Source: Myxococcota bacterium (GTDB lineage: Bacteria; Myxococcota_A; UBA796; UBA9615; JAKLKC01). From it: a stretch of DNA of 64,000 bases. Under the pieces are notes generated by a model. The model did not search any database, was not told where the DNA came from, and saw only the letters and a program-made list of their open reading frames with translations. Location: NCBI GenBank assembly GCA_023150875.1, contig JAKLKC010000001.1, positions 124,001-188,000 of the forward strand, written 5' to 3'. Position 1 is the stretch's first letter, and every line of letters starts with the position of its first letter. This document shows, piece by piece, positions 3,157 to 54,658 of this stretch. The position numbers and the translations under genes were made by a program.

Positions 3157-3244
3157 CGCCAGACGATCCCGGGAGGAGCGCCCTCCCCGGGGCGTCCCCG
3201 GTCCCGGCTACGGAACTCCAGGGATGGGATGCACAAAGCGGGGC

Positions 3245-29020: not shown

Positions 29021-32000
29021 TTGCCGGCGCGGGTGAAGCTGGGGCGGTTCCGGCTCCAGCGCCGGCTCGGCGAGGGGGCGAGCGGCCTGGTCTTCCTGGC
29101 CGTCCACGAGCCGTCGGGCCACGAGGTCGCGGTGAAGGTGCTGAGGCCCGAGAGGGCCGTCGCCGCCCGCTCCCTGGAGCGGTTCGAGCGGGAGATCCGC
29201 GCCGTGGCCCGCCTGGACCACCGGGGGATCATCCGCTTCCTCGACCACGGGATCGTGGACGGGCTGGCCTCGAAGGAGAGCGGAGACTACCTCTCGCCGG
29301 GCTCGCCGTGGCTGGCGATGGAGCTGGCCCGGGGCCCCTCCCTCGGCGCCCGCCTCGCCCGGGGCGTGCGCTTCGATGACGTGGTGGATTTGGCCAGGGC
29401 GCTGCTGTCGGCCCTCGCCCACGCCCACGCCCGGGGGATCGTCCACGGCGACCTCAAACCGGAGAACGTGCTGGTCCGCACCCCCTCGGACTCCCTGGCG
29501 GACGTGGTGCTGACGGACCTCGGGCTCTCGGGCCTCTGGACCGCCCGCGCGGGGGAGGCCCGGCGGGGGGACCGGTGCTGCGGCACCCCGGGGTACATGG
29601 CGCCGGAACAGCTCGCCGGCTCCGCGGAGATCGGCCCCGAGGCCGATCTCTACGCCCTGGGGGCCCTGCTGTGGTCCGCGATCTGCGGATCTCTCCCCTT
29701 CGGCAACGACCTGCCCGGATCTCCCCTGGCGCGCCTGGTCGCCCACCTGCCTCCCCTGCGGCCCCGCCCGGGGGTCTCGCCGCCCCCGGGGACCCTCGGC
29801 TTCCTGGCGGGGCTGCTGGCGGGCTCCCCCCGCGACCGCTTCGCCAGCGCCGCCGAAGCCGCCCGGGCCCTGGACGCCGTCACCCGCGGCGCCGCGCCGC
29901 TCCGTCCCCGGGGGGAGTCGCCCCCTCCACCCTCGGACTGGAGGGGCCTCGACGCCCCCCGCCGGGACGCCGGCCACGCCGCCGGGCTGTCCCTGCTGGA
30001 CCTGCGCCCTCCCCCCTTCGGCGGCCAGGAGGGCCTGCGGGACCGCCTCTGGGCGGCCCTCGGGGACGCGGCGCGGGGCGAGGGCACCCGGATCGTGCTG
30101 CTGACGGGGCACCAGGGGGTCGGCAAGAGCCGCCTGGCCCGCTGGCTGTGCGAGCTGGCCGAGGAGCACGGCTACGGGCGCGCCGCCGTCGCCCGCTACC
30201 CCGACGAGGGAGGGCCCCTCGACGGCCTCCGGGGCGCCCTCGCCCGGCTGCTGCGGGTGGGTGGACGCAGGGGCGACTCCCTGGTCTCCCATCTGGCCGC
30301 CCACCTGGGGGGGCTCACCCGGACCGACGCGTGCGCCCTGGCCTCGTGGCTCCGGCCCGGGTCCTGCGCGGAGGGAGGGGCGGCCCTGCCGACCGCGGAC
30401 GAGCGTTGGTCCCTCGTCCTCGGCGTGCTGGCCATGGAGTCGTCCCAGTGCCCCGTGGTCCTCTGGATGGACGACGTCCACCACGCCACCGAGGGGTTCG
30501 AGCTCCTCCGGCACCTCGCCGCGGACCCCGCCCGCGCCCCCCGACTGGTGGTGGTGGCGACGGCCCGCAGCGCCGATCCCCACGAGCCCGAGGATCCCCG
30601 CCTGCAGGCCGCCCGGCGCCTCCCCGGGGTCGACCACGGGGAGGTCCTGCCCCTGGGCCGGTCGGACGTCCGGGACGTGGCTCGGGGGGTCGTCCCCCTC
30701 GCCCGGGGGCTGGCCGATCGCATCGCCGAGGCCAGCGAGGGCAACCCCCTCTTCGCCATCCAGGTGGTGGAGGAGCTCGCCGCCCGGGACGAGCTCCGCC
30801 CCGTGGCCGACGGCTTCGATGCGAAGGGGACGGTGGAGATCCCCCTCCCCAGGGGGCTCCTGGAGGCCCTGGCGCGCCGGGTGGACGTCGTCTGCCCACG
30901 TCCCCCCTCGGAGGAGCGCTCCGCCCTCCACCTCCTCGCCGTCCTCGCCGCCCGGCCCGACCGCAGGGAGTGGTCCGCCGCGCTGGGTGCCGCCGGCCTG
31001 CCCGTCCAACGCGCCCCCGAGCTGTGGCACGCCTGGGCGGAGTCGGGGCTGCTGGACCCGATGGGAGCCCAGCAGGCCGCGTTCACCCACGGGCTGGTGC
31101 GGACCCTCCTGGTGCGGGAGGCGGCGGCGTCCGGGACGAGGGCCCGGCTGGAGGCCGCCTGCGCCCTGGCGCTGGCGGGACTCCACCCCGACCCGGACCG
31201 CTGGGTCCGGGCGCGGATCGGCCGTCACCGCCTCGCCGCGGGGGACGCCGAGGCGGGCCTCGCCGACCTCCTGGACGCCGCGTGGTCGTTCCACACCGCT
31301 GGGGACTACGCTCAGGAGGAGGAGATCCTCGCCGACGCCCGCGCTGCCGCCCGGGGTCGCGGCGGCCGGCCCGCCCATCCCGCGGCGGACCTCCTGGCCA
31401 TGCGGGAGGCGGGGATCCGGCGCCGGGGCGGGGACCGCCACGCCGTCGAGGCCACCGCCCGGGACGTGCTCTCCCGGGTGCGACCGGACGCCGAGCCGGG
31501 CTCGTGGGAGCGCCGCGCCCGCACGGAGGCCCTGCGGGCCCTGGGGATCGCCGTCCTGGAGCGGGGAGAGGCCGACGCGAGCCTCCCCCTGCTGGAGGCC
31601 TCCCTCGAGGCGTACCGGGAGGAGGAGGACCCCCGGGGGAGCGCCGCGGTCCTGCGGGCCCTCGGGCACGCCCACCTCCTCCGGGGGGACGTTTCCGGCG
31701 CGGAGGCGACGTTCCGCCTGGCGGAGGAGGAGTTCAGCCGGGGCGGGGACCGGGTGGGGTGTGCCCAGGCGTCGTGGAGCCGCGCCCTCGCCCTGGTCTA
31801 CCGGGGCGATCTCCCGCGCGCCGAGGCCCTGTACCGCGAGGTGCGGGATGCGTTCCGCCGGGCGGGCAGCCGCCTGGGGGAGGCGGAGAGCGCCAACGGC
31901 CTCGGCGACGTGCTCCGCCACCAGGGCCGCCTCGACGAGGCCGAGGTCGCCTACCGCGACGCCCTGGCGGGGCTGGAGGGGCTGCGGAGCCCCCACGCCT

Positions 32001-32341
32001 GCCTGGTCCAGGCGAACCTCGGGCTGGTCTCGTTGCTGCGGGGCGATCCCGGCGGGGCGCGCCCCTGGCTGGACTCCGCCCGAAGCGCGCTGGAGCGCCA
32101 GGGCCGGGTTCGGCTGACGGGGCTGGTCGTCTGCGCCTCGGCCCTCGCGGCGGCACTCTCGTCGGACGTGGTCACCGCGGAGGCGGAGCTTCGCCGCGCG
32201 ACCGCCCTCTTCGGGGGTCGCCCCCCCGCGGACCCGGACCTCGCCCGGCTCCTGCGGAGTCTGGCCGAGCGCCTGGACACCCTCGGCCGGCCGGACCTGG
32301 CGGCCCTGGCCCTCGGGATCGAGCCCCCCGGCGTCGCCTGA
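29021..32341 (+). CDS. Ser/Thr kinase fused to AAA/STAND-type ATPase and TPR repeats
   Basis: 1106 aa from TTG 29021, preceded by CGGGGAGGAG. Residues about 8-290 are a kinase domain with LGEGASGLVF, Lys in VAVKVL and VHGDLKPEN. HGD replaces HRD, and TDLGLSG replaces DFG. The catalytic and metal-binding Asp remain, but this is a non-RD kinase. Residues about 340-640 form an AAA-16-like ATPase with Walker A TGHQGVGKSRLA (about 362-370) and Walker B VVLWMDDVHH (about 480). The last 450 residues are TPR-like helix pairs (LRALGHAHLLRGDVSGAEA, SANGLGDVLRHQGRLDEAE). This PknK-type layout suggests a signal-driven ATPase scaffold. It is co-transcribed with the kinase upstream. Confidence 0.93.
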   Translation: MPARVKLGRFRLQRRLGEGASGLVFLAVHEPSGHEVAVKVLRPERAVAARSLERFEREIRAVARLDHRGIIRFLDHGIVDGLASKESGDYLSPGSPWLAMELARGPSLGARLARGVRFDDVVDLARALLSALAHAHARGIVHGDLKPENVLVRTPSDSLADVVLTDLGLSGLWTARAGEARRGDRCCGTPGYMAPEQLAGSAEIGPEADLYALGALLWSAICGSLPFGNDLPGSPLARLVAHLPPLRPRPGVSPPPGTLGFLAGLLAGSPRDRFASAAEAARALDAVTRGAAPLRPRGESPPPPSDWRGLDAPRRDAGHAAGLSLLDLRPPPFGGQEGLRDRLWAALGDAARGEGTRIVLLTGHQGVGKSRLARWLCELAEEHGYGRAAVARYPDEGGPLDGLRGALARLLRVGGRRGDSLVSHLAAHLGGLTRTDACALASWLRPGSCAEGGAALPTADERWSLVLGVLAMESSQCPVVLWMDDVHHATEGFELLRHLAADPARAPRLVVVATARSADPHEPEDPRLQAARRLPGVDHGEVLPLGRSDVRDVARGVVPLARGLADRIAEASEGNPLFAIQVVEELAARDELRPVADGFDAKGTVEIPLPRGLLEALARRVDVVCPRPPSEERSALHLLAVLAARPDRREWSAALGAAGLPVQRAPELWHAWAESGLLDPMGAQQAAFTHGLVRTLLVREAAASGTRARLEAACALALAGLHPDPDRWVRARIGRHRLAAGDAEAGLADLLDAAWSFHTAGDYAQEEEILADARAAARGRGGRPAHPAADLLAMREAGIRRRGGDRHAVEATARDVLSRVRPDAEPGSWERRARTEALRALGIAVLERGEADASLPLLEASLEAYREEEDPRGSAAVLRALGHAHLLRGDVSGAEATFRLAEEEFSRGGDRVGCAQASWSRALALVYRGDLPRAEALYREVRDAFRRAGSRLGEAESANGLGDVLRHQGRLDEAEVAYRDALAGLEGLRSPHACLVQANLGLVSLLRGDPGGARPWLDSARSALERQGRVRLTGLVVCASALAAALSSDVVTAEAELRRATALFGGRPPADPDLARLLRSLAERLDTLGRPDLAALALGIEPPGVA

Positions 32342-32381: not shown

Positions 32382-32482
32382 GTCCAGGTCCACCCGCCGC
32401 CGCTCCCGGAGCGCCCCGCCTGGCGCCGGGGGACCCGGCGGACCCGCTGCCCGGGGCCGTGTGCCTCCTGGAGAGCCCGCGC

Positions 32483-33067
32483 ATGGATGCGACGAGGGAG
32501 AGGACCCATGTGCTGGTGGTGGAGTCGAACGCCGCGGACGCCCAGAGGGTCACGGGGCTCCTGGACGGGATGTTCGCCTGGGACGCCGCCCGCAGCCTGC
32601 CCGAGGCCGAGGCGAAGATCGGCCGGCTGAGGCCGCGGGTGGTGCTGGTGAGCGACGACTGGGGCGAGACCCCCACCCGGGAGTTCTGCCGGCGGGTCAA
32701 GACCGGTCCCCTCCGCCGGGAGGTCGTGGTCGTCACCATGACCCGGGGCGACCCGAAGCTGATCCAGATGGTGTGGGGCCGGCAGAGCGGGGTGGACCTG
32801 CACCTGCGCAAGCCCGTGGACGCCAAGGCCCTCCACGACTGCCTGCGCCTGTGCTGGCAGGTGCTCAAGAGCGGTGAGGTCGCGGTGGCGGCGCAGGACG
32901 ACGCGCCGCGGCAGGTCGCCGGACCGGTGGCGGGCGAGCCCCCGTCCTCCCCCGCGGCGTCCCCCGAGAGCCAGACCCGCCTCCGGGAGATCCTCCACAT
33001 GGAGATCAACGGCGACACGCTCAAGAAGCTCTTCGGGGGTCGGCGGGACCAGGCGTCGTCGGGCTGA
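32483..33067 (+). CDS. Response-regulator receiver protein with degenerate acidic pocket
   Basis: 194 aa from ATG 32483, nine bases after GGAG. The receiver domain spans about 8-125. The usual acidic pair is altered (VLVVESN, with one acid only). The acceptor region is RVVLVSDDWGE, the Thr is in VVVTMT, and the Lys in HLRKPVDAKAL. A Pro/Ala/Ser linker leads to a C-terminal helix (TRLREILHMEINGDTLKKLFG). The weakened pocket suggests poor Mg2+ binding or phosphorylation-independent action. It follows two kinase genes on the same strand, and its last 47 bases overlap the convergent glycosyltransferase-acyltransferase gene. Confidence 0.8.
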   Translation: MDATRERTHVLVVESNAADAQRVTGLLDGMFAWDAARSLPEAEAKIGRLRPRVVLVSDDWGETPTREFCRRVKTGPLRREVVVVTMTRGDPKLIQMVWGRQSGVDLHLRKPVDAKALHDCLRLCWQVLKSGEVAVAAQDDAPRQVAGPVAGEPPSSPAASPESQTRLREILHMEINGDTLKKLFGGRRDQASSG

Positions 33068-34763
33068 GGGCTTCGACCTCGCTCCCTCTCTCGCCCGCCA
33101 GGGCCCGCGGGGGCGGGTCCGGGGCCGCCCCGGTGGCGGCACCCGGAGGCGAGGGAGGGGCCCAGAACCGGTAGAAGTTGAACCACTGGTAGGGGAACCG
33201 CCTCACCCACGCCTCCAGTCGGGCGGCGTAGGCGGCGACCCACTCCCGCATCTGCGCGTCCCGGTCCTCCCCCGGGCGGAAGGCGATCCGGGTGGGCCCG
33301 TCGACGGCGATCCGGTACCGGGTCGGTCCCACCTTGATGCAGTGGACCTCCATGATGGGGGAACGGGCGATGGCGGCGATGGCGAAGGGCCCCGTGGGGA
33401 ACGCCGCGTCGGCCCCCAGGAACGGCACCGAGACGTGGTTGCCGTCCACGAGGCGGTCCCCCTTCATGGCTACCACCGCGCCCCGGCGGAGCGCCTTCAG
33501 GATCTCCAGGGAGGCCATGGAGCCCGGCGTCACCCCGATCACCTCGGGCATCCGTTCGCCGAAGCGCCCGAGGAAGCGGCGGACGTCGGCCCTCTCGTTC
33601 TGGAACATCACCAGCTTCACGGGCACGTCCCGCCCCAGGGACAGGGCGATCCCCGCCAGCTCGGCGTTCCCGAAGTGGGAGGTCAACAGCATCACCCCCC
33701 GGCCCTTCCCCCACTCCTCCCGGAGGAGCTCCATCTCCTCGCCGACGAACTCGAAGGCGTCCGGGCCCTGTTGGAGCATCAGGAAGCGGTCCACGAGGTA
33801 GGTGGCGAAGGCCCGGAAGTGCGCGCGGACCCGGTGGACGCGCACCGGGAGGGACGCCGGCCCGAGGACCCGCCCGAGGTAGTCGTCGGACGCCGCCCTC
33901 CCCCTGCGGGCGAACAGCGCGTACCACGCCGAGATCGGGTGCAGCATCACGTAGACGGCCCGGCGGCCCAGCAGGCGCATCACCCAGTAGGTGAGGTGCC
34001 AGCCCAGCACGGCCCCCTGGGCCTGGCCCGACCACCCCACGTCGCCCCCCGCGGGGGTGGCGCGGCGGCCCGGCAACAGTCTCTGGAAGGGCCAGAGGAA
34101 GAACAGGGTCGCGAAGACCCTGCTGAACCGGACGTTGTCCCGGAGCACGTCGAAGTGGCTGACCCGCTCCGACGCCGGCGGGTAGTAGACGCCGATGGGC
34201 ACGTTGGCGATGGCGATGCCCGCCCAGGCGGCCCGGACCAGGACCTCCATCTCCCAGTCGTAGCGGCGGGCCCGGAGGCGCAGGGCGAGCACCTCCGCCG
34301 CCGGGTAGACGCGGAAGCCGCTCTGGCTGTCCTCGACGGTCACCCCGCCGTCGATGCGGACCCAGAGGTTCGAGAACCACCGCCCGAACCGGGCGGCCCG
34401 GCTCCGGTTGGGCCCGTCCCACGGACGGCTCCCCACCACGAGGGTCGGGACCCCGCCCTCGGCGGCCCGGAGCAGGGCCGGCGCGTCCTCGGGGTGGTGC
34501 TGGCCGTCGCCATCCAGGGTCACGACGTGGGAGAAGCCCCTCGCCACGGCCGCGGCGAGCCCCGTCTCCAGCGCCGCCCCCTTTCCCCGGTTGACCTCGT
34601 GGACCAGGACTTCCGCGCCGGCCTCCCGCGCCCGGTCCCCGGTGCCGTCGGTGGACCCGTCGTCGACGACGAACACGGGCTCCAGCACCGCCCGGGCGCG
34701 GGCCACCACGGCGGCGATGGTGCCGGCGTTGTCGAAGCTGGGGATCACGACGCAGGCGCGCAT
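33021..34763 (-). CDS. GT2 glycosyltransferase fused to LpxL/HtrB-type acyltransferase
   Basis: 580 aa from ATG 34763; GTG 34778, nine bases after GGAGGG, is an equally good start. Residues 1-215 are a family 2 glycosyltransferase (RACVVIPSFDNAGTI, FVVDDGSTDG, VTLDGDGQHHPED, EDSQSGFRVYP). After a short linker, residues about 260-555 form an LPLAT domain of the lauroyl acyltransferase type, with LLTSHFGNAELAG (HX4E) and VAMKGDRLVDGNHVSVPFLG. Both domains occur as neighbours in aryl-polyene and xanthomonadin clusters. There they attach the polyene head group to a membrane lipid. It sits behind LolA-like and DUF3261 genes in one operon, and its end overlaps the receiver gene by 47 bases. Confidence 0.9.
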   Translation of the reverse strand: MRACVVIPSFDNAGTIAAVVARARAVLEPVFVVDDGSTDGTGDRAREAGAEVLVHEVNRGKGAALETGLAAAVARGFSHVVTLDGDGQHHPEDAPALLRAAEGGVPTLVVGSRPWDGPNRSRAARFGRWFSNLWVRIDGGVTVEDSQSGFRVYPAAEVLALRLRARRYDWEMEVLVRAAWAGIAIANVPIGVYYPPASERVSHFDVLRDNVRFSRVFATLFFLWPFQRLLPGRRATPAGGDVGWSGQAQGAVLGWHLTYWVMRLLGRRAVYVMLHPISAWYALFARRGRAASDDYLGRVLGPASLPVRVHRVRAHFRAFATYLVDRFLMLQQGPDAFEFVGEEMELLREEWGKGRGVMLLTSHFGNAELAGIALSLGRDVPVKLVMFQNERADVRRFLGRFGERMPEVIGVTPGSMASLEILKALRRGAVVAMKGDRLVDGNHVSVPFLGADAAFPTGPFAIAAIARSPIMEVHCIKVGPTRYRIAVDGPTRIAFRPGEDRDAQMREWVAAYAARLEAWVRRFPYQWFNFYRFWAPPSPPGAATGAAPDPPPRALAGERGSEVEALSPTTPGPADPRRAS

Positions 34764-34802
34764 CGTTCGCTCGGGCACCGGCCGGCTCCCTCCCACCCTC
34801 CG

Positions 34803-35501
34803 CTACCGCGGGGAGGGAGCCTCGTCGAACAGGTTGGGATCGTACTCGACGTCGAAGGTCGCGTCCTGGAGGCGCAGGCGCAGCGTGTAGCGGTGGGCCC
34901 GGCTCGCCACGTCCACCGACCGGTGCACCAGCGGCTGGCCCGGCAGGGGCTCCGACAGCACCACCACCGCCCGCTCCCGGCCCCGGCGATCCAGGAGCCG
35001 CTTGGTGGTGCGCGCACCGTCGCTCCTCACCTCCAGCGTGGTGCCCCCCTCCCTCGGGCAGCGGCGCACCGTCGCCCCCGGCACCTCCCCGACCTCGCCC
35101 TCCCCGGGGGCGCATCGGTCCACCAGGGCGAGGTGGAGGTCCCGAGCCAGGGGCTCGCCCCGGAAGATGGGGCGCAGGGGCGGGAACAGCACCTCGGCCC
35201 GGGCCCCCGCGGGCGTCCAGGCGAGCTGGAAGAGGTCGACCCCCATGGGTGTCGACGCGACCAGGATCCAGCCCCTCTCCGGCACCCACAGGGTGTAGGA
35301 GGTGAACACGAAGCTCCGCAACGGCAGGCGCATCTCCACCTGGTGGACGAGCTGGGCCGACCGGGGGAGGGTGGCCGGGGGCTCCTCGCCCGCCACGGCC
35401 CAAGCACCCGGCTCCGGGAGGCGCGTGCGGTGGGCGCATCCTGCGGATCCCAGGCAGATCAAGACTGCAATCGCCAGGGCGGTGGGGGCGGTGGGGACCA
35501 C
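34803..35501 (-). CDS. DUF3261-like outer-membrane lipoprotein
   Basis: 232 aa from GTG 35501. A lipoprotein signal peptide ends in LGSAGC (Cys22). The mature chain is beta-rich and about 200 residues long (VHQVEMRLPLRSFVFTSYTL, AWTPAGARAEVLFPPLRPIF, VDRCAPGEGEV). It resembles DUF3261 lipoproteins that regularly accompany LolA-like and acyltransferase genes in aryl-polyene clusters. Identification is by overall layout and neighbours, not by a catalytic motif. It lies 27 bases after the LolA-like gene and about 40 before the fusion gene, so the three form one operon. Confidence 0.7.
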   Translation of the reverse strand: MVPTAPTALAIAVLICLGSAGCAHRTRLPEPGAWAVAGEEPPATLPRSAQLVHQVEMRLPLRSFVFTSYTLWVPERGWILVASTPMGVDLFQLAWTPAGARAEVLFPPLRPIFRGEPLARDLHLALVDRCAPGEGEVGEVPGATVRRCPREGGTTLEVRSDGARTTKRLLDRRGRERAVVVLSEPLPGQPLVHRSVDVASRAHRYTLRLRLQDATFDVEYDPNLFDEAPSPR

Positions 35502-35528
35502 GTGGGGAGGGGACCGCTCGCTCGGGGC

Positions 35529-36155
35529 CTAGGGCGCCGAGCGGTCGACGGCCTTCTGGGAGGTGAACTCGATGTCGGTGGTGTCGCCGTCGGGCTCGGA
35601 GATCACCAGCCGCCGCACGAGGAGGTCGTCCCCGAACGTGAACGCCAGGCCCGCGATGTACTTCCGCATCCCCTCGTCCCGAGGGACCAGCCGCAGCTCC
35701 GTCCCGGGATCCGTGACGAGCCGGACGTCGTAGTCCTTCCGGAGCGCGGCGGGATCCGCCTTCAGCCACAGGAACATGGACTCGATGATCCCCTTCATCC
35801 CGGGGCTGCGGGCGAGGTCGAACTCCTCGGAGCGCCCCAGGTCCGGGTAGGACATGGTGACCTTCCCCGCCGCGAGGGTCAGGGAGCTGCGCTGGGGCGA
35901 GGTGTACTCCCAGACCAGGGAGCCGTCCCGGGCGAAGGAGAGCCTCCCCTCGCTCCTCTGGGGCTGGGCGAAGATCCGCAGGGTCTTCTTCTGGACGAAG
36001 GCGGACTCCAGGGACTCGAGCCGCCCCAGGCGCGCGAACAGCTCCGCCTCGGTGGGTGGGGACGCCGAGGCGGGGGCGGCCCCCGGGAAGGCTCCCAGGA
36101 GCAGGGCGGCGATCGCGGCGGCGATGGCTCGCCTCAAGGGGTTCGGACGCGGCAT
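35529..36155 (-). CDS. LolA-family outer-membrane lipoprotein carrier-like protein
   Basis: 208 aa with an N-terminal signal peptide (AAIAALLLGAFPGAAPASAS). The LolA half-barrel is recognisable: LESLESAFVQKKTLRIFAQPQ, GRLSFARDGSLVWEYTSPQR, LAAGKVTMSYP, the central helix KGIIESMFLWLKADPAAL, and C-terminal strands FGDDLLVRRLVISEPDGDTT. LolA carries lipoproteins across the periplasm. Divergent copies next to DUF3261 and acyltransferases carry polyene or other lipids instead. As the first gene of the three-gene operon it diverges from the PlsC gene at 36364. It is probably not the housekeeping lolA. Confidence 0.82.
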   Translation of the reverse strand: MPRPNPLRRAIAAAIAALLLGAFPGAAPASASPPTEAELFARLGRLESLESAFVQKKTLRIFAQPQRSEGRLSFARDGSLVWEYTSPQRSSLTLAAGKVTMSYPDLGRSEEFDLARSPGMKGIIESMFLWLKADPAALRKDYDVRLVTDPGTELRLVPRDEGMRKYIAGLAFTFGDDLLVRRLVISEPDGDTTDIEFTSQKAVDRSAP

Positions 36156-36227
36156 GGATGGGGCTCCAGCGTCTCCCTCCCGGGGCGGAGGGGCGTGGAA
36201 GTGCGCGGAAGGTCGCAGGAAAGCGTG

Positions 36228-36233
36228 TATGAT
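36228..36233 (+). promoter_or_regulatory. Putative -10 box TATGAT before the PlsC gene
   Basis: CGTGTATGATGCTC lies in the 208-base divergent gap between the LolA-like operon and PlsC, about 130 bases before GTG 36364. The best -10 match in the gap; no -35 is evident. Confidence 0.35.
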
Positions 36234-36363
36234 GCTCGCTGGGCGGTGGGGGCGTCAAGGGGCCGTGGCCGGGGGCCTGTCCCGCCGGCGTCCCCGTCCC
36301 CCGTCCCGCCAACGCCGGCCCGGACCCCGGGCCCGGCCCCGAACGCCGGGCGACGCCAGCAAC

Positions 36364-37161
36364 GTGAACCGCCTCGCCGCGCTCTACATCTGGACCCTGG
36401 TGGTGGCTTTCGCCGCCCTGGCGTACGTCGTCGGGCTGCCGATCCGCCTGCTGGCGCCCCCGCGGCTGGACCCCGGCCGGCGCCTCCTGGACCGGGTCAG
36501 CCGGATCGCATGGGGGCGCATCCCCTTCTGGCTCAACCCCTTCTGGCGGCGATCGGTCGAGGGCCTGGAGCGGCTCCAGGGGACCGGCCCCTTCCTGCTG
36601 CTCCCGAACCACCAGTCCATGGTGGACGTGCTCGCCCTTCAGGGCCTGCCGATCCAGATCAAGTGGGTGACCTCGTCGCGCTTCTTCGCCGTGCCCCTCG
36701 TCGGCGCCCACATGCGCTCCGCGGGCTACGTCGGGGTCGACCCCCGGGACCTGGCCTCGGTGCGGGGGATGATGCGGGAGTGCGGCGAGTGGCTCCGGCG
36801 GGGGATCTCGGTGTGCCTCTTCCCCGAGGGCACCCGCTCCCCCGACGGGGCGCTCCAGCCCTTGCATCTCGGCCCCTTCCGGATCGCCCTCGACAGCGGG
36901 GCCACCATCGTGCCCATCGTCATCGACGGGAGCCGAGAGGCGCTGCCGAAGGGATCCGCCCTTCCCCTGGGCCGCCCGCCATGGCGGATCCGGGTGCGGA
37001 TCCTGGAGCCCATCGCCGCGCGGGAGTACCAGGGCATGACCGCGGCGGCCCTCTGCCGCACCGTCCACGGCCGCCTCGCCGCGGGGCTGGGGCACCTCAG
37101 GGAGGAAGCCCGCCCCCGCTCCGCCCCGGCCTCCCGCTCGGGGGGCGACGGGGGGCGCTGA
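36364..37161 (+). CDS. PlsC-type 1-acyl-glycerol-3-phosphate acyltransferase
   Basis: 265 aa from GTG 36364. An N-terminal membrane helix (LYIWTLVVAFAALAYVVG) is followed by the LPLAT core: motif I LLPNHQSMVD (HX4D), the FFAVPLVGAHMRSAG stretch, motif III LFPEGTRS, and IVPIVIDGS. The enzyme makes phosphatidic acid or acylates a related lipid at the inner membrane. Its position opposite a LolA / DUF3261 / GT-acyltransferase operon suggests a role in building a special envelope lipid, but a housekeeping PlsC cannot be ruled out. The open frame extends far upstream, yet homology begins at this GTG. Confidence 0.88.
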   Translation: MNRLAALYIWTLVVAFAALAYVVGLPIRLLAPPRLDPGRRLLDRVSRIAWGRIPFWLNPFWRRSVEGLERLQGTGPFLLLPNHQSMVDVLALQGLPIQIKWVTSSRFFAVPLVGAHMRSAGYVGVDPRDLASVRGMMRECGEWLRRGISVCLFPEGTRSPDGALQPLHLGPFRIALDSGATIVPIVIDGSREALPKGSALPLGRPPWRIRVRILEPIAAREYQGMTAAALCRTVHGRLAAGLGHLREEARPRSAPASRSGGDGGR

Positions 37162-37194
37162 CGAGGGCGCGTCCCCGCCGGCGGGCGGGCCCGC

Positions 37195-37223
37195 TTGCCC
37201 CTCCCCTCCCCCGCCCGTAACCT
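37195..37223 (+). promoter_or_regulatory. Putative promoter TTGCCC-N17-TAACCT
   Basis: TTGCCC (37195-37200), 17-bp spacer, TAACCT (37218-37223). The predicted transcript start near 37230 leaves a short leader before GTG 37244 or GTG 37277 of the methyltransferase fusion. Confidence 0.5.
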
Positions 37224-37243
37224 GTGCCGCCGCGCCGCCCCCG

Positions 37244-38608
37244 GTGGGCCCTCCACCCACCCATGCCGTCCCTGCCGTGAAGACCTCCCCCACGCCCCCG
37301 CCACTGCCAGGAGCGACGCCCAGAGGCGCCGGAACGCCGGGCGCCTCGGGGAGGTCGGGGTCTGTCCGCCAGGTCGTCCGGGAGCTGAAGCGCGTGCGGG
37401 GCCCGGCCGAGGCGTTCCGGCTCCTCCTCCACCACCTCGCCCACGACCACACGGAGCCCTCTCGCCTGGCGGCGGCCGTGGCGGTGGGGACCTTCCTGGG
37501 CGCCACCCCCTTCTACGGGTTCCACGTCGCCCTGTGCGTGGTGGCGGCCCTGGCGCTCCGCCTCAACGTCCTGGTCACCTACCTCGCCGCCAACGTCTCG
37601 AACCCGGTCTTCGCCCCCTTCCTCGTCGTCGCCGAACTCCACGTCGGGTCCTGGCTGCTCCACGGGAGGCTCGCGCCGTGGACCGTCGCCGAGCTGCGGG
37701 AGCGCCTGGGGGCGGACCCCACGGGGACCCTGCGGGGCCTCGCCGACACCGTGCTCGGCCCCCTCCTCCTGGGCTCGGCGGTGGTGGGCGCGGGGCTCGG
37801 AGCCGCGGGAGGGCTGCTGACCTGGGACGTGGCCCGGCGAGCCCGCGCACGACGGGCCCTCCACCGGGAGTCGGGGATCTCTCCGGTGCCCCCCGGAGGG
37901 GATCCGGCGCTGGACGCGGCCCTCGGAAGGGTCGCCGAACTGGCCCTCACCCTCCCGCCTCCGCCGGGGGCGGGGCGGTTCGCCCGCCGCTACGAGCGGG
38001 AGTTCGTGCGGCGGAAGCTCGGGTACGACCCGATCTTCCGCACCCTGCCTCCCCTGATCCCCGACGGGGCCGACGTGTGCGACGTCGGGTGCGGGCGGGG
38101 GCTGCTCCTGGCGGTCCTCGCGGCGCGGGGGCACCGGGGTGCCCTCCGGGGCTTCGACTGGGACGACGCGCGCCTCGGCACGGCCCGGCACCTGTCCGGG
38201 GGACGTGGTGACGTCGCCCTGGCCCGGGCGGACGCGCGATCCGCGCCGATCCCGGAAGCCGACGTGATCGTGCTGGTGGACCTGCTCCACTACCTCGCCC
38301 CCCAGGAGCAGGACGCGGTCCTGGAGGCGGCCATCCTTCGCCTCCGCCCCGGGGGGAGGCTGCTCCTGCGGGACATGGACGTGTCCCCCGGCGCGGGGTG
38401 GAGGGGGGGCCTCCACCGCCTCCAGGAACGGCTGACCACCTCCCTGGGGGTCAACCGCGGCGAGCGGGTGGCGCCCCCGGGGCTGGACGCGATCCAGGCC
38501 CGCCTCGAAGCCCGCGGCTTCGCCGTCCGCTCCCAGCGGATCGCCGGGTGGTTCGGGAGCACGGATCGGCTCCTGGTGGCGGACCTTCCCGGGCGGGACG
38601 CGCCGTGA
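37244..38608 (+). CDS. DUF2062 membrane domain fused to SAM-dependent methyltransferase
   Basis: 454 aa from GTG 37244; GTG 37277 is an alternative and neither has a good ribosome site. The N-terminal DUF2062 domain (about 75-205) has AAAVAVGTFLGATPFYGFHV, an NVSNPVFAPFLVVAE loop and a final membrane helix. A class I methyltransferase follows (about 265-450) with the SAM loop DVCDVGCGRGLLLAVLA, FDWDDARL, and VIVLVDLLHYL. DUF2062 is often joined to glycosyltransferases; a methyltransferase partner is less usual. The protein probably methylates a membrane-bound lipid or pigment precursor. Its stop overlaps the next start as GTGA. Confidence 0.85.
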   Translation: MGPPPTHAVPAVKTSPTPPPLPGATPRGAGTPGASGRSGSVRQVVRELKRVRGPAEAFRLLLHHLAHDHTEPSRLAAAVAVGTFLGATPFYGFHVALCVVAALALRLNVLVTYLAANVSNPVFAPFLVVAELHVGSWLLHGRLAPWTVAELRERLGADPTGTLRGLADTVLGPLLLGSAVVGAGLGAAGGLLTWDVARRARARRALHRESGISPVPPGGDPALDAALGRVAELALTLPPPPGAGRFARRYEREFVRRKLGYDPIFRTLPPLIPDGADVCDVGCGRGLLLAVLAARGHRGALRGFDWDDARLGTARHLSGGRGDVALARADARSAPIPEADVIVLVDLLHYLAPQEQDAVLEAAILRLRPGGRLLLRDMDVSPGAGWRGGLHRLQERLTTSLGVNRGERVAPPGLDAIQARLEARGFAVRSQRIAGWFGSTDRLLVADLPGRDAP

Positions 38609-40452: not shown

Positions 40453-41211
40453 TTAACCCGGGAGGGCCGGTCCCGCCGCCGGCTCCCCGGCCGCGCCTCC
40501 TCCCACGCCGAGGGGCACCAGCCGTCCGGCCCGCAGGGCCAGGGCGACGTCGGCGGCCGCCGCGAGCTTCTCGTCGTGGGTGGCGATGACGCAGGCGGTC
40601 CCGTCCCGCCTCCCCACCTCCCGGAGCAGCGCGACCACGGCCTCCGCCGACCCCCGGTCGAGGCTCCCCGTGGGCTCGTCCCCCAGCACCAGGGCGGGAC
40701 GATGCACCAGGGCCCGGGCCAGGGCGACGCGGTGGGCCTCTCCCCCGGAGAGCCGTGAAGCCGGGGCCTGGGCGCGGTCGGCGAGCCCGACCCTGGCCAT
40801 CAGCGCGCCCGCCCGGGCCAACGCGGTGGCCGGGGGCACCCCCGCCAGCAGCAGGGGGAGCGCGGCGTTCTCGACGGCGGACAGCCGCGGCACCAGGCGC
40901 GCCTCCTGGAAGAGCATGCCCACCCGGGTCGCCCGCAGCCTCGCTCCCCCCTCGTCGTCCAGGGCGGCGACGTCGATCCCGGCCACCCGGACCTCCCCCG
41001 CGTCGGGGCGGATCAGGGCGGCCAGCACCGCCAGCAGCGTGCTCTTCCCGGCCCCCGATGCCCCGGTGACGGCGACGAGGGCCCCGGGGAGGACGTCCAG
41101 GTCCAGCCCGTCCAGCACGGGTCGTCCCACACCCGCCCACGCCTTCACCAGCCCGCGCACCCGGGCGACGGGATCGGTGCCCGGGCGGGGCGAGGGGTGC
41201 GGCGACGGCAT
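40453..41211 (-). CDS. ABC transporter ATP-binding protein, LolD/MacB type
   Basis: 252 aa from ATG 41211. Walker A is VTGASGAGKSTLLAV (about residue 53), the Q-loop GMLFQEARLVPRLS, the signature RLSGGEAHRVALARALV, Walker B LVLGDEPTGSLD, and the switch His in IATHDEKLA. The VGMLFQ..RL.P..S..EN pattern and size match LolD/MacB/FtsE-type ATPases, which pair with a FtsX-like permease. No permease gene is adjacent, so the partner must be elsewhere. An extended -10 ends seven bases before the ATG, so the message may be leaderless. It diverges from the GluQ-RS gene. Confidence 0.92.
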   Translation of the reverse strand: MPSPHPSPRPGTDPVARVRGLVKAWAGVGRPVLDGLDLDVLPGALVAVTGASGAGKSTLLAVLAALIRPDAGEVRVAGIDVAALDDEGGARLRATRVGMLFQEARLVPRLSAVENAALPLLLAGVPPATALARAGALMARVGLADRAQAPASRLSGGEAHRVALARALVHRPALVLGDEPTGSLDRGSAEAVVALLREVGRRDGTACVIATHDEKLAAAADVALALRAGRLVPLGVGGGAAGEPAAGPALPG

Positions 41212-46739: not shown

Positions 46740-48161
46740 TCAGCCGGAGGGCGAGAGCACGCGCCGGAGCGCCTCCTCCACCCCCACGTCCCGCCCCACC
46801 AGGCATCCCAGCGCCGCCAGCTTCCCGCCCGCCGAGGCGAGGACCTCCGGGTCCAGCCGATCCCCCTGGGCGGACGCCCACGCCGCGACCCGGACGCCGA
46901 ACCGGTCGGCCCTCTCCGAGGCGCTGGACACCGGCACCCCGAGGCGCGCGGGCGCCTCCTGCCGGAACGGACCGGGCGGGGGAAGGGGCCCGGTGGAGCC
47001 GGGGCTCCCGGCGCCCATCTTCGTCATCGCCGACGCGAGGCGGAGCGCGAAGGCCCGGGCGCAAAGCTCCCCCCGGCGCGTCGCCGGGGTGGCGTGCCGG
47101 GCCGGCGACAGCGTCTCCAGGTCCCAGAGCAACGCCACCAGGACCGCGTCCCCCCTCGCCCGGCTCCCGCCGTCGGCGCCCCCCTCGCCCCACGCCCAGG
47201 GGCGCCGCCACTCGTCCCCCGCCGGCCTCGCTCCGTCGATGGCCGCCAGGATCCCGTCCTCGGCGCTCCCGCCGGCCGCCGGGGGCGGGAGGTCGCCGAT
47301 CTCCCGCGTCCCCCGCGCGTCCAGCTCCGAGAGCCCCAGCGCCCGGTCCACCAGGACCAACGCCTCCCTCGGATGGACGAAGCGGTCCAGGAGTCGCAGG
47401 GAGGCTTCCAGGAACCGCGTCAGGCGGCCGTCGTCGATGAGCCGTCCCCTTCGCGTGCCCTCGCCCCGGCTCCCCTCCACGGACGGGACGTCCGGCCCGA
47501 GCGCGGCGAGGATCGCCGCGGCACGCTCCTCCACCTCCCCCGGACGGGCGGGGACGGGAGCGGTCCCGGGCAGGCCGAACCGCGTCCAACCTACCCGCCC
47601 CTCGCCCCCGCCTCCGCCGAGGGGAACGAACGGCGGCGCGGACAGGATCCTCTCGGTCCGGCGCAGCACGTTGCCGGTGTAGCTTCGATACAGCGCCAGG
47701 GACTGGGTCGCCATGCGGTCGAAGAGGGCGATGGCGGCGCCGCCGCTGGGGGCCCGGGAGAGGGCCACCAGCCCGGTCAGGGGCAGGGGGCCTCCCCCGG
47801 CAGGGACGCCGGTGGTGACCCCCGCCGACGCGCTGGCGCCGAGCAGCTTCCACGCGACGAAGTCCTGCCACAGGTCGTCCAGGGTGGCGGCATCCGTCCC
47901 CCGGACGGCTCCCGGCGCCCGCCGCATCTTCCGCAAGAAGCGGGACCTGCCGATCTCGATCCAACCCGCCTCCCTCCCTTCCCCGGCAACGAAGCGCCGG
48001 ACCGAGTCGAGCAGGCGATCCCCCTCCGTGCGGGCGCAGGTGGAAGGCCGCGTCGACTGCTCCAGGGAAGGAGCGACTTGGGGCGGCGCCGTTCGGATCG
48101 GATCGACCGGGACCGCGACGGTCCCGTCCCCATCGCCCGCGTGGCCATGGAGTGGTGGCAT
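46740..48161 (-). CDS. Large protein of unknown function, operon partner of the MazF-like gene
   Basis: 473 aa from ATG 48161; GGGAGG lies nine bases upstream and a TATGAT box about 50 bases upstream. Near residues 55-115 a helical part (LLDSVRRFVAGEG, TLDDLWQDFVAWKLLG) recalls sigma-70 region 2 but is too weak to name. The middle is helical (ALFDRMATQSLALYRSYTGN, RLTRFLEASLRLLDRFVHPREA). The C-terminal third is mostly helical as well (ALLWDLETLSPARHATPATRR). There are no signal peptide or membrane helices, so it should be cytoplasmic. It is divergent from the kinase-ATPase gene at 48376 and is followed by the MazF-like gene. Confidence 0.65.
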   Translation of the reverse strand: MPPLHGHAGDGDGTVAVPVDPIRTAPPQVAPSLEQSTRPSTCARTEGDRLLDSVRRFVAGEGREAGWIEIGRSRFLRKMRRAPGAVRGTDAATLDDLWQDFVAWKLLGASASAGVTTGVPAGGGPLPLTGLVALSRAPSGGAAIALFDRMATQSLALYRSYTGNVLRRTERILSAPPFVPLGGGGGEGRVGWTRFGLPGTAPVPARPGEVEERAAAILAALGPDVPSVEGSRGEGTRRGRLIDDGRLTRFLEASLRLLDRFVHPREALVLVDRALGLSELDARGTREIGDLPPPAAGGSAEDGILAAIDGARPAGDEWRRPWAWGEGGADGGSRARGDAVLVALLWDLETLSPARHATPATRRGELCARAFALRLASAMTKMGAGSPGSTGPLPPPGPFRQEAPARLGVPVSSASERADRFGVRVAAWASAQGDRLDPEVLASAGGKLAALGCLVGRDVGVEEALRRVLSPSG

Positions 48162-48179
48162 GGGCCCAGCCTCCCGGTG

Positions 48180-48205
48180 CCCTCCCCTCCCCCTCCCCAT
48201 CCCCC
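48180..48205 (-). promoter_or_regulatory. G-quadruplex-prone leader of the operon at 46160-48161
   Basis: On the minus (transcribed) strand the leader just before the ribosome site holds five G runs of 3-5 bases separated by single A or AT. It lies between the TATGAT box and the start codon, so it would be in the mRNA and could fold into a stable G-quadruplex next to the translation start. Confidence 0.45.
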
Positions 48206-48212
48206 GCTCGCC

Positions 48213-48218
48213 ATCATA
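48213..48218 (-). promoter_or_regulatory. Putative -10 box TATGAT of the 46160-48161 operon
   Basis: The minus strand reads GGTATGATGG about 50 bases before ATG 48161. No clear -35 is seen. Confidence 0.4.
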
Positions 48219-48324
48219 CCGCCCTGCCGGCGGGCCGGTCTTCGCGGCATCCGAGCGCTCCTCCGCCCCGCGCCGCGGCGATGCGCGGCCCCGGACCGGG
48301 AGGTCCACGCCCGGGGGGGCGTGG

Positions 48325-48330
48325 TATGCT
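48325..48330 (+). promoter_or_regulatory. Putative -10 box TATGCT of the kinase-ATPase gene
   Basis: GTGGTATGCTGGC lies 46 bases before GTG 48376. It is the best -10 match in the divergent gap. Confidence 0.4.
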
Positions 48331-48375
48331 GGCGTCACGGTCCCGTTCCCCTTCCGTCCCCCTTCCGCCGTCGTC

Positions 48376-51300
48376 GTGAAACCGCCGCGCCTCCTCAGCC
48401 TCGCCCTCCATCGACTGGGAATGCTGCGCGGCGGCGCGGGGGAGTCGCGCCCACCCCAGGGCCGCCCCGCGGACGGCGACGGCCCTCAGCCCCGGTCCCC
48501 CACCGAGCCCGTCGGGGTGGACCCGGCGCGGTCGGCTGGGACGGGGGAGGCCGCCCCCCCTCCGCGCCCCGCGGACACCGGCGGTTGGCCCGCCGACGCG
48601 GCGACCGTCCACGTCTCCGTTCCCCCGGTGGGGCCCGATCCGTCAGGGGCGGAGGACCCGCCGCGCCCGACGCACCCCGTGGACGACGCGACGTGGGTAC
48701 CCGAAGGCGGTCCGTTCCGGGGCGCGGACGCCGGCGGCGGCGAGGATCCCCCCGCCCGCCCCCTGTTCACCGCCGTCCCCGCGGTGGGCTGGCCCCTCGG
48801 CCCCTACCGCGTCCGCAACCTGATAGGCGAAGGGGGGATGGGGAACGTCTACGAGGCCGTCCACCTGGCGACGGGGGCGGCGGTGGCCCTGAAGGTGCTG
48901 CACCGGGCCGACCGGCGCGAGGCCCTCACCCGCGAGGCCCGTGCCGTCGCCCGGGTCGACCACCCGGGCGTGATCCGCCTGTACGACTACGACGAGGTCT
49001 CCGAGGAGTCCGCCGATGCCTCCGGCGGCGTGCTCCCCCTCGGCTCCCTCTACCTGGTGATGGAGCTGGCGCCGGGAGGCTCCCTGGAGGCCCATCCACC
49101 GGCCACGTGGCCCGAGGTGCATCGCGCCGTCGACCGGGTGCTGGAGACGCTGGCCGCGGTCCACGCCCGGGGGCTGGTCCATCGGGACCTCAAGCCCGCC
49201 AACGTGCTGAGGATGCGGGGAGGGTGGGGTCGGGGCTCCCTCAAGCTCGCGGACTTCGGCCTCGCCGCCCCCTCCGACGAGAGCTCGGACGTCGCGGGGA
49301 CGCCCCACTACATGGCCCCCGAACAGATCGATCGGGCCCGGGGCGAGGCGGGGCCCTGGACCGACATCTACGCCCTGGGGGCCATCGCCTGGCTATGGGT
49401 CACCGGGACCCCGGCGTTCGGCGGGACGAGCACCGAGGCGGTCCTGGTGGCCCACCTCCGGCGCGATCCGCCGCCCCTGGCGCCCCGGGAAGGCATGGAA
49501 GTACCCCCGGGGCTGGATCTCCTGCTCCGGCGGATGCTCGCCCGGGATCCCCACGGCCGCTTCGACTTCGCCGCCGACGCCCGGGACGCCTGGAGGGCGC
49601 TGCTGGCGGGGGCGACCCAGCGCCCCTTCCCCACCGCGCGGCGACCCGCCTCCACGCGCCAGGATCCTCCCCCCCTCCAGGGGGCTGGCCTCCGCCTCTT
49701 CGCCCTGCGGGAGGCCCCCCTCACCGGCCGGGCCGCAGAGCAGGAGGCCCTCTGGGGCGCGCTGCAGGGGGTCTTCCTCTCGGGCAAGGCCCGGGCCGTC
49801 GTGTTGGAGGGGGCGCCCGGGGTCGGAAAGTCCCGGCTGGCGAGCTGGCTGGTGGAGCGCGCCCACGAGGAGGGAGTCGCCCGGGTGATCGCCGCCACCC
49901 ACGCGTCCGGGGGTGGCACCCCGGACTCCGGCATGCGGGCGGCGGTCGCGCGCTACCTCGGGGTCCACCGTGCCCAGGGGCGTGCGCGGGTCGACCGGTT
50001 GGTCCGCCGCCTCTCCGGGCCCGAGGCCGCGCCTCCGGACCGCGTCGCCCGGGTGCTGGCGTGGCTCGATCCCGCCGAGGGGGCCGCTCCCCCCTCGGGC
50101 CTGCCCCCGGTGGTGCTGGAGGGCCCGGAGGCGCGCTGGAGGGTGGCCGAGGAGGTGCTGGCCCACGTCGCCCTGGACCGGCCGGTGGTCCTCTGGCTCG
50201 ACGACCTCCACTGGGGTCGTGACTCCGTCGGGCTCATGGAATTCCTGCTCAACGCCCAGGATTCCCGCCCCCTGCCGGTCCTGGTGGTGGCCACGGTGAG
50301 GGCGGGGGAGCCCGGCGCAGCCCTTCCCCACCTGCGGGCGCGCCCGGACGTCGCCTGGATGTCCCTCCCCCCCCTGGCCGCCGAGGACTCCCTGGACCTG
50401 GTGCGCCGCACCTTGGACGTGGAGCCCGATCTGGCCCGGGTCGTCGCGGAGCGCTGCGAGGGGAATCCCCTGTTCGCGGTGCGCCTGCTGGGATCGTGGG
50501 TGTCCGAGGCCGCCCTGGAGCCCGGGCAGGCGGGCCTGCGCCTCCGGGCCGGCTCCCGGCACCTCGCGGTGCCGGCGGGGATCCGCGAGGTGTGGGAGCG
50601 CCGGGTCCTTTCCGCCCTCCAGCCCCTCCCACCCGGGGCCCAGGACGTGCTCTGGCACGCCGCCGCCCTGGGCCTGCACGTGCGGCGGGACGAGGTCCGG
50701 GCCGCCCTCACGTCGCCCCAGGGGCCGGGAGACCTCGTCCTGGACGACACGTGGGAGGCGCTGCTGTCCGCCGGGCTCCTCCGGGACGCCGGACCGGGGG
50801 CGGCCTCGTTCGACCACGGGCTGCTGCGGGAGACGGTGCTCTCGGGGATCGGCGAGCACGCCCCGCGGGTGCACCGCGCCTGCGCCGAGGGCCTCTCGGT
50901 CCACCTGGACCGGCGCAGCCCGGGGGCGAGGGGCCGGATCGGCCGCCACTTCCTCCAGGCGGAGGCCTGGCCCGAGGCGGTGGACTGGCTGCTGGCCGAG
51001 GCGCGCTCCCGCTTCTTCTCGTTCGCGATCCAGGAGGCGGAGGCCGCCCTCGTCGACGCCCGCACGGCCCTGGCCCGGGGAGGTCTGGAGGGCGACGCGG
51101 TGCGGCAGACCACCTACCTGCTGATCTCGTCGCGGGTACAGCGCCAGGCCGGCCGGTGCCGGGAGGCGCTGGATCTGGCGGAGAGGGCCTGGGACCTGGT
51201 CGCCGACGCGGACCCGGGGCTCGCGGGGAGGGCGGCCCACCTGGCGGGGGTCGCCGCGGAGGGGCTGCGGGACCTGGACCGCGCCCACGAGCTGGGGGAG

Positions 51301-52233
51301 CTCGCGCTGGACAAGGCGCGGATCGCCGGGGACCCGGTGCTGGAGAGCGACTGCCTCCGCCTGCTGGGGATCGTGTCGGCCCAGCGGGGGGACCTGCGCG
51401 GCGCCGTCCAGATCCTGCGCCAGGCGGCGGACCTCCTCGCCCGGGCCGGATCCCGACGGGACCTCCTGCTCAAAAAAAAACTGAACACCCTCGTCTACTG
51501 GGCCGCGGCGGCGGGGGACCTGGACGACGCCCGCCAGGCGGTGGACCTGGCGCGGACGGTGGTCGCGGGGACGGTGGACCCGGGGGTGAGGGCGCTGGAG
51601 CTCCGCATGGAGGCGGTCCTCGCGCGGGTCTCGGGGGACGCGGAGGCGGCACTGCGGCTGGCCGCGGAGGCCCGATTCGGCTTCGCCGCCAGCGGTGCCC
51701 GGATCCAGGAGCTCTACTGCCTCGACGAGATGGGAGAGGCGGCCCGCGGGGTGGGGGACCTGGACGCCGCCGAGGGATGGTACACCGAGGCCATGGCCGG
51801 GTGGGCGGCCCTCGGCGACACCCGGGGCGAGGCCATCTCCCGGGTCAACCTCGCCCTGCTCCACCTCGCCCGGGGCCAGCTCGAGGACGCCCGGGAGCTG
51901 GCCCAGCGGGCCCGGGAGTCGTTCGCGCGGGAGGGGAACCGGAGCTACGTCGCCGCCTCCGACATCGTGCTCGCCGAGATCGCCGCCGGCCGGGGCGACC
52001 TGCCCGAGGCCGAGGCGAGGCTCGCCGCCGCGGCCGTCGAGCTCGGAGGCACGGGCTTCGTCCACGAGGACCTGGCAGAGATGCTGGAGGACCTCGGTAC
52101 CCGCGCCGCCGCCAGCGGACGCCACGGGCTCGCCCGGAGCGCCCTGGACCTCGCCGCCCGACAATGGGAGCGCCTCGGCCGCGCCGACCGCGCCGACCGG
52201 CTCCGGGAGGAGCCCGTCCCCGCTGGGAGTTGA
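48376..52233 (+). CDS. Ser/Thr kinase fused to AAA/STAND-type ATPase and TPR repeats
   Basis: 1285 aa from GTG 48376 (ATG 48421 is an alternative). A disordered Pro-rich N-terminus of about 130 residues precedes an intact kinase domain (about 140-405): IGEGGMGNVYEA, Lys in VALKVL, LVHRDLKPANVL, LADFGLAA, APEQ. An AAA-16-like ATPase follows with Walker A EGAPGVGKSRLA (about 478) and Walker B VVLWLDDLHWG (about 605). The last 600 residues are TPR-like (LELRMEAVLARVSGDAEAA, AISRVNLALLHLARGQLED). The layout matches the gene at 29021-32341, so the two are paralogues. An A9 run at 51472-51480 lies in the TPR part. It converges on the next kinase. Confidence 0.94.
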   Translation: MKPPRLLSLALHRLGMLRGGAGESRPPQGRPADGDGPQPRSPTEPVGVDPARSAGTGEAAPPPRPADTGGWPADAATVHVSVPPVGPDPSGAEDPPRPTHPVDDATWVPEGGPFRGADAGGGEDPPARPLFTAVPAVGWPLGPYRVRNLIGEGGMGNVYEAVHLATGAAVALKVLHRADRREALTREARAVARVDHPGVIRLYDYDEVSEESADASGGVLPLGSLYLVMELAPGGSLEAHPPATWPEVHRAVDRVLETLAAVHARGLVHRDLKPANVLRMRGGWGRGSLKLADFGLAAPSDESSDVAGTPHYMAPEQIDRARGEAGPWTDIYALGAIAWLWVTGTPAFGGTSTEAVLVAHLRRDPPPLAPREGMEVPPGLDLLLRRMLARDPHGRFDFAADARDAWRALLAGATQRPFPTARRPASTRQDPPPLQGAGLRLFALREAPLTGRAAEQEALWGALQGVFLSGKARAVVLEGAPGVGKSRLASWLVERAHEEGVARVIAATHASGGGTPDSGMRAAVARYLGVHRAQGRARVDRLVRRLSGPEAAPPDRVARVLAWLDPAEGAAPPSGLPPVVLEGPEARWRVAEEVLAHVALDRPVVLWLDDLHWGRDSVGLMEFLLNAQDSRPLPVLVVATVRAGEPGAALPHLRARPDVAWMSLPPLAAEDSLDLVRRTLDVEPDLARVVAERCEGNPLFAVRLLGSWVSEAALEPGQAGLRLRAGSRHLAVPAGIREVWERRVLSALQPLPPGAQDVLWHAAALGLHVRRDEVRAALTSPQGPGDLVLDDTWEALLSAGLLRDAGPGAASFDHGLLRETVLSGIGEHAPRVHRACAEGLSVHLDRRSPGARGRIGRHFLQAEAWPEAVDWLLAEARSRFFSFAIQEAEAALVDARTALARGGLEGDAVRQTTYLLISSRVQRQAGRCREALDLAERAWDLVADADPGLAGRAAHLAGVAAEGLRDLDRAHELGELALDKARIAGDPVLESDCLRLLGIVSAQRGDLRGAVQILRQAADLLARAGSRRDLLLKKKLNTLVYWAAAAGDLDDARQAVDLARTVVAGTVDPGVRALELRMEAVLARVSGDAEAALRLAAEARFGFAASGARIQELYCLDEMGEAARGVGDLDAAEGWYTEAMAGWAALGDTRGEAISRVNLALLHLARGQLEDARELAQRARESFAREGNRSYVAASDIVLAEIAAGRGDLPEAEARLAAAAVELGGTGFVHEDLAEMLEDLGTRAAASGRHGLARSALDLAARQWERLGRADRADRLREEPVPAGS
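51472..51480 (+). repeat. A9 homopolymer inside the kinase-ATPase gene
   Basis: Nine adenines encode Lys1033-1035 in LLLKKKLNTL. In DNA of this composition such a run is rare. One A fewer (or a one-base slip) would read AAA AAA AAC TGA, stopping at once and removing about 250 TPR residues. It is a candidate site for transcriptional slippage or phase variation. Confidence 0.6.
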
Positions 52234-54376: not shown

Positions 54377-54472
54377 CCGCCCATCTCCCGAGGGCATCCG
54401 CAATGGGGCTGGACCGGGAGCCGGCACCACCGGCCGCCCGCCCGCAACCCCCCGGAACGCGGACGCTGGCCG

Positions 54473-54478
54473 ATGATA
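54473..54478 (-). promoter_or_regulatory. Putative -10 box TATCAT of the kinase at 52289-54376
   Basis: The minus strand reads GGGTTATCATCGG about 100 bases before the start. It resembles the glycosyltransferase box at 25124. No good -35. Confidence 0.35.
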
Positions 54479-54658
54479 ACCCAGATCCCGCGCCGGTCAG
54501 CGCCCGGACCGGCGTCGGCCCGGAACGACGGGGGCCGCGTCGAGGACCTTCAACCCGCTCCGTCCTCGGCGTGGCGCGGCGGTCCTGTCCGCCTCGGATG
54601 CGCGCCCTTGGCCCGGCGCTTGCCCTGAAGCCCGTCCGCCCCGGGTGCCCGGGGCCCG

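Follow-up and report, generated by a model that had tools for sequence, protein, structure and literature searches.

A putative lipid attachment and outer-membrane delivery arm of an aryl-polyene-type pathway, set apart from candidate synthase and exporter genes in a Myxococcota genome

Introduction

A 64-kb stretch of a bacterial genome (hereafter, the window; bases 124001–188000 of the 265-kb contig C92) contains adjacent genes for a LolA-like carrier, a DUF3261 lipoprotein, and a glycosyltransferase/acyltransferase (GT/AT), raising the question of which pathway these genes serve. The initial annotation regarded them as an orphan trio that could be the lipid-attachment part of a split pigment cluster or a system for another outer-membrane lipid. 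The host genome (G000) comprises 6.92 Mb in 180 contigs (98% complete, 1.2% contamination; GC content, ca. 75%). Its phylum is Myxococcota because same-phylum genomes joined Minicystis rosea in an RpoB tree with 100/100 support; the host genome and its class formed a group of their own.

Arylpolyene clusters are already known to be well represented in Myxococcota (PMC8518188), and APE synthases feature KS–CLF pairs (PMC8358021). In Escherichia coli CFT073, the 18 genes apeA–R form one cluster, which encodes ApeJ (fused glycosyltransferase/acyltransferase), ApeL (LolA), ApeN (DUF3261), ApeD (LPLAT), and ApeM (MMPL) (PMC8253772). The apeJ and apeD mutants of E. coli accumulate late intermediates, and it has been proposed that ApeD and ApeJ perform the attachment to the anchor lipid, followed by transport by ApeM, ApeL, and ApeN (PMC8253772).

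Results

Genes of the cassette

The open reading frames of LolA, DUF3261, and the GT2–LpxL-type protein were confirmed as real (Table 1), and all three lie on the minus strand in one tightly spaced leftward operon, with gaps of 27 bp between lolA and the DUF3261 gene and at most 39 bp between the latter and the fusion gene. The unit is not a trio, as had been proposed: it also takes in the divergent genes for PlsC and the DUF2062-methyltransferase, which are part of one conserved block with the operon. All five ORFs of this cassette are open. For the leftward genes, leave-one-out profiles were built from relatives only, with the window sequence excluded, and were run against 685 kb of the host genome.

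Table 1 Features of the cassette and its intergenic region (positions in the window).
Feature	Position	Strand	Basis and remarks
GT2 + LpxL-type acyltransferase fusion, ApeJ-like, 591 aa	33021..34796	-	Pfam, ApeJ match, leave-one-out profile, motifs
DUF3261 lipoprotein, LolB-like (ApeN-like)	34803..35501	-	Pfam, leave-one-out profile, Foldseek, lipobox-like sequence
LolA-like periplasmic carrier (ApeL / flexirubin LolA2-like), signal peptide	35529..36155	-	Pfam, NCBIfam, tree
Promoter-like site (weak; consensus match only), divergent intergenic region upstream of lolA	36229..36258	-	TTGACG-18-CATCAT
PlsC-type acyltransferase (ApeD-like), divergent	36364..37161	+	Pfam, ApeD match, class-cluster identity
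DUF2062-methyltransferase fusion	37394..38608	+	Start between 37244 and 37394; Pfam, class-cluster matches

Both activities of the fusion are indeed in one protein: Pfam GT2 (3e-19) and Lip_A_acyltrans (6.5e-18) matched the same product, for which another possible ATG start lies at 34763. It showed a full-length phmmer match to E. coli ApeJ (558 aa; 8e-71) and was the top match of its leave-one-out profile (1.5e-170), and its catalytic motifs (DDG and DxD of GT2, HX4E of LpxL) are intact. The fusion is neither unusual nor a novelty because ApeJ has the same fused architecture.

The DUF3261 protein matched its Pfam family at 7e-4, under the Pfam cut-off, and was the top and sole match of its leave-one-out profile (1e-9) as well as the single DUF3261 match in the host genome. 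It carries a lipobox-like sequence (...LGSAGC). The best PDB matches of its predicted model (three sequences; mean pLDDT, only 68) in Foldseek were LolB and LolA, with LolB structures nearest and TM-scores of only 0.2–0.4, suggesting with moderate confidence that the protein folds like LolB/LolA.

The window LolA belongs to the LolA fold family (Pfam LolA, 9e-14) and was the top match of its leave-one-out profile (1e-43). Its best curated match was flexirubin LolA2 (NCBIfam NF053544, LolA2_flexi; 9e-23), at 80.7 bits and thus below the 125-bit equivalog cut-off, and it also fell below the cut-off for canonical LolA (TIGR00547; 47.7 against 112). The host genome has only one other LolA, the canonical copy on C136; in the LolA tree, the window protein was sister to the LolAs of the class clusters (85/88), apart from the canonical one. 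Identities were low (LolA, ca. 30%; DUF3261, ca. 20–27%).

On the divergent side, the PlsC-type protein matched Pfam Acyltransferase (1e-23) and ApeD (8e-8), and shared 34–37% identity with the PlsC portion of the class PlsC-methyltransferase. The neighboring protein matched DUF2062 (1e-22) and Methyltransf_23 (2e-13), its halves corresponding to the DUF2062 gene of the class clusters and the PlsC-fused methyltransferase, respectively. The promoter-like site is the sole occurrence in 6.8 kb (0.0 expected). Nearby lie genes for an ABC transporter ATPase that looks LolD/MacB-like (40456–41118, minus strand), a Ser/Thr kinase with AAA and TPR domains (29021–32341, plus strand), and a protein with a weak response-regulator domain under the Pfam cut-off (32459–33067, plus strand), whose end converges with the fusion gene. 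Further kinase-like ORFs are found in the window at ca. 724–3207, 47683–52230, and 52292–54496.

As initially annotated, KS, ACP, APE-type dehydratase (DH), and MMPL gave no match anywhere in the window. An assembly artefact is an unlikely cause of this split, because the cassette lies at least 105 kb from both contig ends and the 27-bp gap between lolA and the DUF3261 gene is inside assembled sequence.

The conserved block in relatives

We compared the cassette with 18 loci of the same class carrying the GT/AT fusion. The typical class block consists of a PlsC-methyltransferase gene divergent from LolA–MMPL–DUF3261–GT/AT, followed by ACP and KS; several blocks add a FabA-type dehydratase, a flavin oxidase, a halogenase-like protein, and a DUF2062 gene. 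The window agrees with it in gene order and orientation, and only the 4-kb MMPL gene between LolA and DUF3261 is absent. KS was present on the stretch at 13 of the 18 loci and KS or ACP at 16, and at the remaining two the fusion gene is at most 1.7 kb from a contig end. The pigment-type clusters L063, L067, L074, and L076 share with the window the divergent PlsC, the order of LolA, DUF3261, and GT/AT, and the DUF2062 gene. In contrast to the window, their MMPL with AAT and TPR parts lies inside the operon, their PlsC is fused to the methyltransferase, and KS, ACP, FabA-type dehydratase, amine oxidase, and halogenase-like genes adjoin.

The AAT part is an acyl-CoA:6-APA acyltransferase-like Ntn hydrolase, which together with TPR forms a C-terminal extension of the class MMPLs (L063:4674–8657 and equivalents; ca. 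1240–1355 aa). It stands alone in genomes of the same taxonomic order, in Minicystis, and in the host genome, where a separate AAT+TPR protein is encoded on C180 (70989–72683). A polysaccharide deacetylase is encoded by a separate gene in the class cluster L063 (16228–16983) and shares a single open frame with LolA at L217:11956–13476 (G004:C347), adjoining MMPL–ACP–DH–KS.

Beyond the class, more distant relatives of the GT2 and acyltransferase were found, among the matches listed, in KS/ACP/LolA/MMPL clusters of Aminicenantes, Elusimicrobia, Nitrospira, Desulfobacterota, Bacteroidota, and Lysobacteraceae. The opposite outcome named by the initial annotation was that all relatives would have the trio in a lipid A or ornithine-lipid locus devoid of polyene genes. 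This gene-neighborhood survey contradicts it, since KS/ACP/MMPL clusters house these families both in the class and in the more distant groups. The nearest relatives of the same order gave no match for DUF3261, though GT2 and PlsC are kept; therefore, the arm is not uniformly conserved across the order. Relatives of this order also have arrays of ca. eight KS genes (G001:C233:6333–19719, ca. 13 kb from GT2). Minicystis rosea (complete genome; cultured) has another orphan export set, GT2–AAT–LolA (L154:9992–12916), with no KS match in a 20-kb stretch (ca. 10 kb on each side).

Exporter and synthase genes elsewhere in the genome

The cassette is an orphan within the window but not within the genome, where MMPL, KS/CLF, ACP, DH, and KR occur at other loci (C106, C11, C92:84k, and C147). 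The class MMPL profile gave one strong match in the host genome (C147:150519–152939; E value, 1.7e-89), corresponding to a gene for an 837-aa protein (C147:150453–152966) that is followed by a second PlsC gene. KS sites were found on C136 (FabF), C106, C11, C118, C177, C169 (three sites), and C92:84k, which makes, apart from FabF, at least eight KS/CLF loci.

At C106:48480–54131, the gene order is KS–CLF–ACP–hotdog dehydratase–KS–CLF. This set is collinear with one in a genome of the same order (G003:C254), with five of six genes being reciprocal best matches, and the equivalent there comes directly after LolA–MMPL. G001 and G004 have a shorter version, LolA–MMPL–ACP–DH–KS–CLF. In the KS tree, the first C106 KS (C106_49k) grouped with LolA–MMPL-linked loci of the same order (100/99), and the second (C106_52k) with the corresponding KS of the same order and with class-cluster KSs (95/87). 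Both KSs have the Cys-His-His active site, the Cys is absent from the CLFs, and the ACP retains its DSL motif. C11 carries KR–KS–CLF, whose KR is 50% identical to the class KR.

Our best guess for the main partner synthase is the C106 set, at about even odds. The region at C169:43.8–50.7k is a less likely candidate because in the trees its KSs fall with those of the large KS arrays of the same order or near FabF, not with the LolA–MMPL-linked set. The cassette has no physical linkage to a synthase other than the KS–CLF pair at C92:84k, at a distance of 71 kb on its own contig. The loci are linked by phylogeny and gene content rather than physically.

ApeJ-, ApeL-, ApeN-, and ApeD-like genes are common to the CFT073 cluster and the cassette, and the host MMPL gene, the counterpart of apeM, is at another locus; the roles of these five E. 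coli proteins agree with those proposed here. Whereas CFT073 has a single cluster, the host cassette stands alone, with MMPL, KS, CLF, ACP, DH, and KR dispersed, and its C106 synthase has two KS–CLF pairs. No counterpart of ApeH (ApeH-type aryl-ACP ligase) or ApeK and no thioesterase was found in the host KS loci examined; one aromatic lyase is encoded in the host genome, on C112. In a limited literature search, we found no publication describing an export arm that stands alone while its synthase is dispersed.

Discussion

The genes at 33021–38608 probably (at roughly 0.7) act as the arm for lipid attachment and delivery to the outer membrane in an aryl-polyene-type lipid pathway, the synthase and exporter genes of which have dispersed to other loci. 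The computation shows directly what the genes are, that the block order is conserved, and that the missing parts are present in the genome and phylogenetically linked. The suggestion of a split pigment cluster has good support, in that relatives carry the block with KS, ACP, and MMPL, and the host has these plus CLF, DH, and KR elsewhere. Points that speak against this reading are the missing physical linkage to a synthase (apart from the KS–CLF pair on C92), the lack of an ApeH-type ligase or thioesterase in the KS loci examined, the uneven conservation of the arm in the order, and the low identities. We infer the joint working of the parts and their chemistry, which would resemble those of the APE, flexirubin, and xanthomonadin pathways; an aryl starter and a polyene product are possible.

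Alternatively, the cassette could serve a different outer-membrane glycolipid, with the fusion glycosylating an anchor and loading ordinary fatty acyl-ACP while the KS/CLF sets make unrelated products. The window without a synthase, the number of KS loci, any of which may be unrelated, the retention of GT2 and PlsC in genomes of the same order without local LolA/DUF3261, and the Minicystis set are consistent with this. However, the same families sit in KS/ACP/MMPL clusters in the class and six more distant groups, and the host retains cluster-type MMPL and KS sets; we consider this explanation unlikely. Still less probable is that the class-wide pigment cluster lost its synthase and exporter here and left the cassette to decay. 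The MMPL gap falls precisely at the syntenic position, and the host KS loci yielded no amine oxidase or halogenase-like genes of the class type, but the ORFs and the catalytic motifs of the fusion are preserved, and MMPL and KS/ACP/DH sets survive at other loci with intact KS active sites. Finally, although the fusion has an LpxL-family acyltransferase domain, an ordinary lipid A acyltransferase locus is highly improbable, because LpxC and six other Lip_A_acyltrans matches lie at other genome sites, and the identity as a lipid A late acyltransferase (LpxL/HtrB) was rejected, with a TIGR02207 score of 27.9 bits against a cut-off of 297.8, a full-length match to ApeJ, and neighbors that are not lipid A genes. 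Other LpxL-type acyltransferase domains in the host genome occur in open frames of 588–710 aa (C122:37220, C44:94555, C137:25279, and C180:81658).

In the dispersed aryl-polyene-type pathway that we favor, a type II KS/CLF system, for which C106 is the best candidate, with the C11 KR–KS–CLF set helping, would use its ACP to build a polyunsaturated acyl chain. Glycosylation of a lipid anchor would fall to the GT2 domain, and acyl groups, including the ACP-bound polyene, would be loaded by the acyltransferases of LpxL and PlsC type. The C147 MMPL protein may then export the lipid from the inner membrane, after which LolA would ferry it through the periplasm, and the LolB-like DUF3261 lipoprotein would take it up at the outer membrane. 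More speculatively, one stand-alone arm might serve several separate KS/CLF synthases, so that differing polyunsaturated chains made at scattered loci would end up on the same glycolipid anchor and use a common Lol-like shuttle, although we regard this as rather doubtful.

Aryl-polyene-type pathways are usually recognised as a single compact cluster, and cluster-based mining would under-call a pathway in which the attachment/export arm, the exporter, and the synthase are separate. For such pigments, little is yet known about the anchor lipid and the transport steps. The present analysis marks off an export unit consisting of LolA, LolB-like DUF3261, GT/AT, PlsC, and methyltransferase, and offers a testable link between this unit and a specific KS/CLF set.
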